Both the position numbers and the translations under genes were made by a program. From assembly GCA_026416715.1 (NCBI GenBank), contig JAOAEQ010000005.1, positions 79,546-143,545 on the forward strand: a DNA stretch of 64,000 bases, in the 5' to 3' direction. The DNA comes from a bacterium. GTDB lineage: Bacteria; UBP4; UBA4092; JAOAEQ01. The notes below the pieces were generated by a model. The model did not search any database, was not told the origin of the DNA, and saw only the letters and a program-made list of their open reading frames with translations. Positions within the stretch are counted from its first letter, which is position 1; the number at the start of each line of letters is the position of its first letter. Positions 50,171-53,095 of this stretch are shown here, in pieces.

Positions 50171-51487
50171 CTATCCAGTTTTCTTTACTTTGGTTAAAAC
50201 ATACGGTCCGTCTGGAATAACCGCAATGGTTGCGTTTGATCCATATCTAGTCAAAGCAAGGTTAATTCCAGCTTCAACGCTCGAAATCGGCTGGACGTGA
50301 CATCGTTTCAGTTCTTCAAACGATATGCCAGTTGAATAAAATTGAACGGTTACCTTGCGTAATACCTTTATTAACTCTTCTACTTCCCATTGGTCGAGTT
50401 GAAAATAATCCGGCGCTGAAATCATCTGGATAAACTGTTCCGGCGATTGCATATTGAATAATAATTTACGGAATTCCGGACTCCCAACTCCGTCAGAACA
50501 TTCCGCAGCACAAATTATCGTTCCGCCATTTTTAACAATCGCTAACGCACCAACTAATCCTTTAACCGATTGATAGAAGTTCTGGTCGAGCGGATACCCG
50601 CCGTTCGTGGTTATAACAATCTCAAACGGTTGTTCAACGGTAACCAACGTCTGCAATTCACATTGTTGTACCCCAGCGTAAAACGCTTGGTCTAAATCAC
50701 CAGAGAAAACGCCGGTAATCTGCTGCTCTCGGTTTACGAGCACGTTCAGAATAAAATCTACCCCTACCCGTTTAGCTACCGCTACGGCAAATTCATGGCA
50801 AGGATTATGGTCGAGGTTTCCCGGGATAGCAAACGGTGATTCAAGTAACTTCGGCCCGTGAAAATATTTCATCGTATCGAGTCCGGATATACCAGGACAG
50901 ATAGATTTTCTCCCACCGGAAAATCCGGTCATAAAATGCGGTTCGATACATCCAGTTAAAATTTTCATATCTGATTCCACATACCGTCTATTCACCGAGA
51001 CCGAAATATCGTTGAGCGTAAAAGAAACTAACGAAGTTTTATCCAGTGCAGTATGGTCGAACACACGATAGGATTCTAGAATCTCTTGACCGAATAAGGT
51101 TAATCGTTCTTCGGGAGTAGATGCTCGATGCATGCCGGTCGCAATCAGAATGGTTATTTGTTCGTTATGAATCCCAGCTCGGTGTAATTCTGATAATAGC
51201 GGCGGTAGAATAATTTTATACGGTACCGGGCGAGTATAATCCGAAACGACAATACACACCGTTTTAGGGCGTTTTTTTCGGATAAGTGCATATAACGATA
51301 CCGAACCGATTGGATTTCGTAGTGACTCTAGAATACTTTCATGCGGTCGAGCGAGTGGAACGATGGTATCATCAGGAGTGAGAACTTGCGTCTGTTTGGG
51401 GACAGTTACGGTTAATGTATCTTTCCCATACGCTAACTGTATCTGGTGAGATGGATGCATGGCTTTACAGCTTGATGCTTGAGCCAT
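50171..51487 (-). CDS. larA: Lactate-racemase-like protein LarA
   Basis: 438 residues of the LarA (DUF2088) family, nickel-pincer racemases or epimerases. Signature CIEPHFMTGFSGGRKSICPG contains the histidine and the lysine (GGRKS) that attaches the nicotinic acid-derived cofactor. The earlier ATGMHRASTPEERL holds another conserved histidine. LarB, LarC and LarE (cofactor makers) are not in the window. The start at 51487 lies 14 bases after the mature tRNA-Leu; a longer frame that reads through the tRNA is an artefact. A downstream ATG at 51460 is also possible. No ribosome binding site is visible. Confidence 0.85.
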   Translation of the reverse strand: MAQASSCKAMHPSHQIQLAYGKDTLTVTVPKQTQVLTPDDTIVPLARPHESILESLRNPIGSVSLYALIRKKRPKTVCIVVSDYTRPVPYKIILPPLLSELHRAGIHNEQITILIATGMHRASTPEERLTLFGQEILESYRVFDHTALDKTSLVSFTLNDISVSVNRRYVESDMKILTGCIEPHFMTGFSGGRKSICPGISGLDTMKYFHGPKLLESPFAIPGNLDHNPCHEFAVAVAKRVGVDFILNVLVNREQQITGVFSGDLDQAFYAGVQQCELQTLVTVEQPFEIVITTNGGYPLDQNFYQSVKGLVGALAIVKNGGTIICAAECSDGVGSPEFRKLLFNMQSPEQFIQMISAPDYFQLDQWEVEELIKVLRKVTVQFYSTGISFEELKRCHVQPISSVEAGINLALTRYGSNATIAVIPDGPYVLTKVKKTG

Positions 51488-51500
51488 AATTGAGATGGAT

Positions 51501-51589
51501 TGGTGCCGGAGGGGGGAGTTGAACCCCCACGAGGGGTGAGCCTCGGTGGATTTTGAGTCCACTGCGTCTGCCAGTTCCGCCACTCCGGC
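51501..51589 (-). tRNA. tRNA-Leu (CAA)
   Basis: On the minus strand, acceptor GCCGGAG/CTCCGGC with encoded ACCA. D-arm present; anticodon stem GTGGA/TCCAC around loop CTCAAAA (anticodon CAA), and a long variable arm typical of leucine tRNAs. It lies just upstream of larA on the same strand, so a shared transcript is likely. Confidence 0.95.
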
Positions 51590-51658: not shown

Positions 51659-52108
51659 TCATAAAGACCGAGTTGTTATCTGATGATCTACCCAGCTCTG
51701 GATACATTCCGCTAACGTATCCTGGGTATATCCTTGTACGGTTAATAAAGGAGAAGGATTACCCCGAATTATGGCTGAAATCCGTTGTTTTGCAGATTCA
51801 GCAATATCGTAAAGGCAGAGAACCGGTTTGTTCTGATGAATAGCGGTAGCGATTTCGTAGCCAACTCCTAGACTCGGAATAGAAATTTCTGCAATCACCA
51901 GTTCAGATTCCGCTAACTGCTGCATATCTCGTAAAAAGATTTGGGTAGGGTCAGCGGGTTCACCTTTACCATCATCGGTAACATTCGGGTCAAAAACCTG
52001 CGGGCTGGTTATCTTATGACCTAGCGAATAAACGATTCCTGCTATTCGCTGATATACAGCTACCTTTTGGCGACCGGCAGCTATTGCGCCTGATAAATAG
52101 ATATTCAT
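51659..52108 (-). CDS. Nucleoside 2-deoxyribosyltransferase-like protein
   Basis: 149 residues, resembling the nucleoside 2-deoxyribosyltransferase/DNPH1 group. Opening MNIYLSGAIAAGRQ, then the acidic D-x-x-x-L segment RDMQQLAESELVIAEISIPSLGVGYEIATA, where the catalytic glutamate of GVGYE is expected. It would cleave 2'-deoxynucleotides or similar. Start ATG 52108; a TTG two codons upstream is less likely. Confidence 0.78.
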   Translation of the reverse strand: MNIYLSGAIAAGRQKVAVYQRIAGIVYSLGHKITSPQVFDPNVTDDGKGEPADPTQIFLRDMQQLAESELVIAEISIPSLGVGYEIATAIHQNKPVLCLYDIAESAKQRISAIIRGNPSPLLTVQGYTQDTLAECIQSWVDHQITTRSL

Positions 52109-52232
52109 CACCAAACCAATGTTGAAAAAGAGATTTGAGGGTATGAAACTAAAAATTCAGCATCGGGATAAAAGAAAAGGTTCAACTGCTTCTAGACTCA
52201 AATCTCTTTCTCTAGATTCTTTTCTTCTCAAA

Positions 52233-52958
52233 TTATTTACCAGCTTTAAATACCGCTGCTTGTAAAATTTCTTTCGAACTATCGTCCTGAATGAATGCAA
52301 CGATGCCAAGATTCGTATATTTCCATGCCGGATTGACCTTAAACGTTCTTTTTATATCTACCGGTTTTTTCCCTTGTAAGGGCAAACTATCTTCGGTAAC
52401 TATTTCCCGAACTACAAACCGATACCGCTTGCCTTTCAATTCAACATTATCTTCATACATCGCCCAGCGAAATTTCAGGTTTGACCGTGTCGCTGTTGTT
52501 AGGGGAGTAACAGTAGCTTTCATCATTGCATGTTCCGAGCTGATGTTTCCTGAAAGAGTTATGCTGAACGATGCTGTAGTTTGCATGAGTTCATTAACGA
52601 TTTTTTCATATTCGGTCTGGATGGTTTCCGAACCGCCAACCTGAGTTTTCGTTCCGTTAAATTTTGCGGTCGGTAATCCACGGGCATTATACCACTGCGC
52701 TCGCGATTCAGTTTGCGAAGTAGCAAGTTCGTCATTCGTATGGTATTCAAGAACGATACATTTTTCAGACCCATACTTTTCAGCCAACTGGCTGAACGCT
52801 GATTCAGCGTATTTGCAGTAGGGTCACCAATTGGCGGTGAATAGTTCAGCAAGAACAGTTTTCTGGACAGGCGCAGATACCACGAAATTAATCGCTCCGG
52901 CAATTCCAATTAACCCAATACAAAGAACAATTAAATGAAACCGTGATAACCTATTCAT
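52233..52958 (-). CDS. Thioredoxin-fold protein with in-frame TGA (putative selenoprotein)
   Basis: A 241-codon frame from ATG 52958 is interrupted only by TGA at codon 45 (52826-52824). The start has GGAGGG nine bases upstream, then a signal anchor (FHLIVLCIGLIGIAGAINFVV). The context is LAELFTANW-[TGA]-PYCKYAESAF, which matches the thioredoxin motif W-C-x-x-C with TGA at the first cysteine, and the frame continues with EKYGSEKCIVLEYHTND and the cis-proline GLPTAKFNG. The upstream and downstream parts are in the same frame, 57 codons apart, arguing against decay. So Sec (U45-P-Y-C48) is the best reading. Alternatives are a premature stop in a pseudogene or a sequencing error. No Sec-insertion genes are in the window. 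Periplasmic redox or disulfide handling is inferred. Confidence 0.75.
52779..52808 (-). promoter_or_regulatory. Possible bacterial SECIS hairpins
   Basis: Within 15-45 bases after TGA are overlapping hairpins on the minus strand: GCTGAA-TCAGCG-TTCAGC (52808-52791), and TTCAGCC-AGTT-GGCTGAA (52796-52779), a perfect 7-base stem whose loop has G at its second position and lies about 34 bases after TGA. Both fit the published bacterial SECIS placement (loop 16-37 bases from the UGA). Only one would form at a time. Confidence 0.45.
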
Positions 52959-53095
52959 AGAAAATAACCCTCCTTTTTCAGAATGTATAGTATCCAATGG
53001 TGAGTATACCTTACATTATCTAATTTTGTCTATCAATATTTTATTTATTATTTTATTTATTTGACCAAACACAATCAGGTCAAGTATAATTTTGT

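Follow-up and report, generated by a model that had tools for sequence, protein, structure and literature searches.

A probable exported selenoprotein with a thioredoxin-like and an Omp28-type domain in the candidate phylum UBP4

The window analyzed here, a stretch of 64,000 nucleotides from what is probably a MAG of the candidate phylum UBP4, encodes a protein that is very likely an exported selenoprotein with SelB-dependent selenocysteine (Sec) at residue 45, acting as a thiol/selenol-disulfide oxidoreductase of the cell envelope. Judged from sequence, insertion of Sec at codon 45 is close to certain and, given Sec at this position, a redox function in the envelope is highly probable. A selenoprotein had already been proposed in a preliminary description of the window made from its letters, and that reading now finds support in the sel genes of the source genome, in the exchange of TGA and Cys codons among homologues, and in hairpins that covary after the TGA.

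The coordinates given for the gene in the preliminary description are correct, however the strand, which was not stated, is the minus strand (Table 1). Starting from the ATG at 52958, the only in-frame stops are the TGA at codon 45 and the TAA at codon 242, in agreement with the 241-codon frame described as open but for the TGA; the translation reads MNRLSRFHLIVLCIGLIGIAGAINFVVSAPVQKTVLAELFTANW-U-PYCKYAES..., placing W-U-P-Y-C at codon 45, and the frame is intact on both sides of the TGA. The GGAGGG reported ahead of the start is present at the distance listed in Table 1, and the cis-Pro motif GLPT, said to follow in the same frame, is found at residues 94-97. Frame decay elsewhere in the gene had been named as an observation that would speak against a selenoprotein, and none is seen: there is no other disruption, and GC3 is 0.34 before the TGA and 0.39 after it, a similarity in base composition that speaks neither for decay nor for a chimaeric frame. 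An ordinary ORF listing returns only a 184-aa ORF from the TTG at 52787, as had been anticipated for automated gene callers; since this fragment lacks the redox site, such exported selenoproteins are likely under-annotated.

Table 1. Features of the selenoprotein gene, its surroundings and the selD gene of the same genome.
Feature	Coordinates	Strand	Remarks
Selenoprotein gene, 241 codons + TAA stop	52233..52958	minus	In-frame TGA = codon 45
TGA read as selenocysteine (U45), probable	52824..52826	minus	
U-P-Y-C redox motif, residues 45-48	52815..52826	minus	
Ribosome-binding site GGAGGG	52968..52973	minus	ATG 9 nt further on
Hairpin 1, presumed SECIS	52797..52809	minus	nt 18-30 from T of TGA
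Hairpin 2, presumed SECIS	52780..52795	minus	nt 32-47 from T of TGA; TCAGCC-AGTT-GGCTGA
Probable N-terminal export signal, residues 1-29	52872..52958	minus	From sequence features and homologues
Thioredoxin-like domain, ~residues 31-110	52629..52868	minus	cis-Pro P96
Omp28 beta-domain (PF11551), residues 88-238	52245..52697	minus	
Nucleoside 2-deoxyribosyltransferase family (PF05014) gene	51659..52114	minus	Next downstream
selD	L034 1501-2427 (G000:C14:30425-31351)		In-frame TGA

The source genome (64 contigs, 2.96 Mb, estimated 100% complete) contains selA, selB, selD and a tRNA-Sec, the genes that the preliminary description had suggested looking for. SelA is matched at 548 bits, SelB at 417 bits (cut-off 242), and SelD at 368 bits, while the tRNA-Sec scores 70.7 bits against a cut-off of 47, has the anticodon TCA, and shares its strand with selB, which is 90 nt away. 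The selD gene has an in-frame TGA of its own, located within SCSG-U-AAK and followed by a strong hairpin; because of the TGA in this motif, the SelD of the genome is probably itself a selenoprotein.

Homologues were collected by a profile search of 386 genomes, 67 of which hold copies, and the codon was read in frame for the listed TGA copies and for a sample of the other copies. Among the matches listed, TGA occupies precisely the codon of the first Cys in CxxC in 43 stretches, corresponding to 42 distinct genes as one gene of genome G059 was counted twice, and 38 aligned stretches have Cys at the same position, which answers the question raised earlier of whether homologues carry Cys or UGA at this codon. 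No TAA or TAG was found inside the homologues among the matches listed, and an internal stop, where reported, is always a single TGA. The only two single TGAs placed off the motif column both belong to stretches counted among the 38 with Cys; in L085 the TGA is two codons on and reads U-A-A-C, which is still U-x-x-C, and in L076 it stands at the domain end and may be the normal stop. The gene selB is over cut-off in all 28 of the other genomes with a TGA copy compared with 15 of the 36 Cys-only genomes (Fisher p = 2.4e-7). Placing the Sec/Cys label on a tree of 72 copies requires 17 changes, and the well supported branches alone force 6. Up to seven family matches are seen in some genomes, with Sec and Cys forms mixed and partly clustered, as in the multi-copy genomes G103 and G106 (L050, L053, L074, L077, L078, L081, L082, L087; one cluster is at G106:C186:34489-44365). 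Relatives in phage and viral collections were searched for, with none found.

Hairpins suited to a SECIS had also been described after the TGA, and these are confirmed by the fold of the region and by compensatory changes in relatives. For the sequence around the TGA (52763-52832, minus strand) the folding energy is -26.8 kcal/mol (z = -4.4). The hairpins span 15-44 nt past the TGA codon, with a stem-loop directly 3' of the UGA that is conserved as RNA; hairpin 2 (16 nt, TCAGCCAGTTGGCTGA) recurs unchanged at the same position in UBA6127, the second UBP4 genome. In seven copies from several families, hairpin 1 has 80% of cells paired with both-side changes at 2 of 5 pairs, hairpin 2 has 100% of cells paired with both-side changes at 3 of 6 pairs and an invariant AGTT loop, and the two combined have 91% of cells paired; as these copies were picked for likeness to hairpin 2 of the window gene, the paired-cell percentages are favored by the choice, and the both-side changes less so. 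For both hairpins in the seven copies the covariation score reaches 0.468, whereas shuffles give 0.213 (sd 0.048) and sliding the partners gives no more than 0.104.

Across the wider family, a stretch of 54 nt from the codon has a folding z of -1.09 if the copy carries TGA and -0.16 if it carries Cys (p = 0.001), and within the TGA genes the value of -1.09 at the codon compares with -0.29 further downstream (p = 0.0008). Roughly one in three TGA copies shows no excess of folding here, so that the support from RNA, strong in the case of the window gene and the set nearest to it, is not uniform. A single hairpin in fixed register for all TGA copies was considered and rejected, with hairpin 2 (at least 6 of 7 pairs) occurring in 7 of the 43 TGA stretches and 1 of the 38 Cys stretches. 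The Rfam search of the window returned tRNAs only, which has no bearing on a family-specific SECIS.

At the protein level, the N-terminus displays a basic start, a hydrophobic core and VVSA before the mature part. This segment had been described as a membrane anchor; a cleaved signal peptide is more likely, as homologues show clear ordinary signal peptides when inspected by eye. The thioredoxin fold, with TGA at the first Cys of its CxxC, stands: PF00085 reaches 24.4 bits against a cut-off of 23.5 over residues 33-105, a marginal match obtained with C replacing U, and the structural match to HBP35 detailed below agrees with it. The Omp28 family PF11551 is matched at 44.8 bits against a gathering cut-off of 34.9. 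The AlphaFold model, built from three sequences, has a pLDDT of 56 and is good in the beta-domain only, the thioredoxin half being mostly below 50.

In comparing the protein to known families, the top NCBIfam match for the window protein and for the seven other TGA homologues tested is NF045500, named Omp28-related selenoprotein, which a 2026 review equates with the hypothetical protein GOS_C (PMC13188914). Sec at the UxxC of the thioredoxin-like protein GOS_C was published in 2008 by Zhang and Gladyshev, with a set of 74 Sec and 312 Cys sequences (PMC2398784). The earlier suggestion that the layout may be undescribed is therefore withdrawn, as a UxxC thioredoxin-like/Omp28-related group was already in print. 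The window protein shares with GOS_C / NF045500 the thioredoxin-like fold, a UxxC with Sec first and Sec/Cys exchange among homologues, and it has the same layout, with UxxC in a thioredoxin-like domain and then an Omp28-like domain; it differs in its short length (241 aa), its occurrence in UBP4, and its score, which at 69 bits (over model positions 38-265 of 377) stays under the cut-off of 200 and indicates a divergent relative of NF045500 and not a strict member. Scores for the UBP4 relative and for six further TGA copies lie at 46-71 bits, likewise below the cut-off of 200. As the cut-off misses all eight TGA homologues tested, both UBP4 genes included, a broader profile would recover many more. 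A further NF045500 paralogue was not found in the source genome. Omp28 named together with a selenoprotein was not found in the open-access literature, and it is the accession NF045500 and the name GOS_C that tie the window protein to that literature.

The best structural match of the AlphaFold model is HBP35 from Porphyromonas gingivalis (PDB 5y1a; residues 34-241, Z 15.6 against 10.1 for the next), which is also matched by sequence profile over residues 24-222 (7e-8). Both proteins have the thioredoxin-like plus beta-domain architecture; however, HBP35 has Cys where the window protein has Sec, the two are 13% identical, and the C-terminal domain of HBP35, proposed for cell-surface attachment (PMC2907840), is missing from the window protein. 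Recombinant HBP35 exhibits thioredoxin activity in vitro, which is lost on mutating both active-site cysteines (PMC2907840). The C-terminal beta-domain further resembles that of the Omp28 outer membrane lipoprotein (PF11551 / NF033782, PDB 2r2c; structural Z 9.7). NF033782 stands for the lipoprotein subfamily, whereas the window protein lacks a lipobox, the only Cys of its signal, C13, being outside one, and its score against NF033782 is 50.6 bits with a cut-off of 150. A thioredoxin-like domain with a following domain is also seen in Agrobacterium Atu2684 (PDB 2axo), presumably a member of DUF1223 (PF06764), with a structural match of Z 10.1 and a profile match of 2e-7 over the thioredoxin part; PF06764 itself is below cut-off for the window protein, at 21.4 against 30.7.

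The TGA at codon 45 could instead be a true stop, produced by nonsense mutation or assembly error in a decaying Cys-type thioredoxin/Omp28 gene, as the assembly is a draft and a single base change makes TGC or TGT into TGA. This is very improbable in view of the TGA at the same codon in UBA6127 and about 40 other genes, the restriction of TGA copies to selB genomes, the otherwise undisrupted frame of like composition on both sides, and the covariation of the hairpins that follow. An open frame alone does not name the residue inserted, and a recoded genome or a suppressor might place Trp, Cys or Arg at TGA; the chance of this is almost negligible, since Cys is the only alternative residue in the homologues, the tRNA-Sec with its TCA anticodon is present alongside SelA, SelB and SelD, and, by a crude count in which non-gene frames are included, TGA ends 6 of the 34 open frames of at least 250 codons in the window.

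With Sec as the preferred reading of codon 45, SelB and Sec-tRNA(Sec) would bind the two-hairpin element after the UGA, leading to selenocysteine at residue 45, and the N-terminal signal would direct export through the inner membrane. Once mature, the protein would consist of the thioredoxin-like domain (UxxC, cis-proline) and the Omp28-type beta-sandwich domain. Its most likely function would be that of an oxidoreductase, either periplasmic or located at the outer envelope, in which the selenolate of U45 may make the attack and the thiol of C48 resolve it, with the beta-domain holding or presenting a substrate. No catalytic function of the Omp28 domain is known to us, which would also suit a protein in which Sec is inserted and the main role is the binding or delivery of a ligand, such as haem, and not disulfide exchange. 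HBP35, the best structural match, does bind hemin besides its thioredoxin activity, the 27-kDa form included (PMC2907840). Such a ligand role is nonetheless unlikely to be the main one here, as the conserved UxxC/CxxC and the cis-Pro argue for redox chemistry and no haem genes were recognised adjoining the gene.

Taking the family as a whole, the balance of evidence leans towards the window gene being one of many for exported selenoproteins of the thioredoxin/Omp28 type that the curated GOS_C model does not cover, a large and mostly unrecorded pool that spans many bacterial families, is often multicopy, has undergone repeated Sec/Cys switches and in part uses a two-hairpin SECIS with an invariant AGUU loop. 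New elements, judged against the open-access literature and with an earlier report elsewhere possible, appear to be the finding of the gene in UBP4, the extent of the group beyond the curated model and the covariation of the two-hairpin element. The group may be useful in that it offers naturally occurring Sec/Cys switches in an oxidoreductase that probably acts outside the cytoplasm, accompanied by covarying SECIS-like structures.

Close orthologues of the window gene are limited to UBA6127, as the search of the phylum covered two UBP4 genomes (the source genome and UBA6127). The UBA6127 relative has TGA at the same codon, and its protein is 31% identical. The PF05014 gene that follows the selenoprotein gene in the window is also found downstream of the selenoprotein in UBA6127 (L113 9801-10253; 51% identity), and this conserved pair supports the orthology of the UBP4 genes. 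Further along, a lactate racemase LarA-like ORF (50171-51583) with a GTG call begins within a tRNA-Leu (51501-51589); its true start is probably further in.
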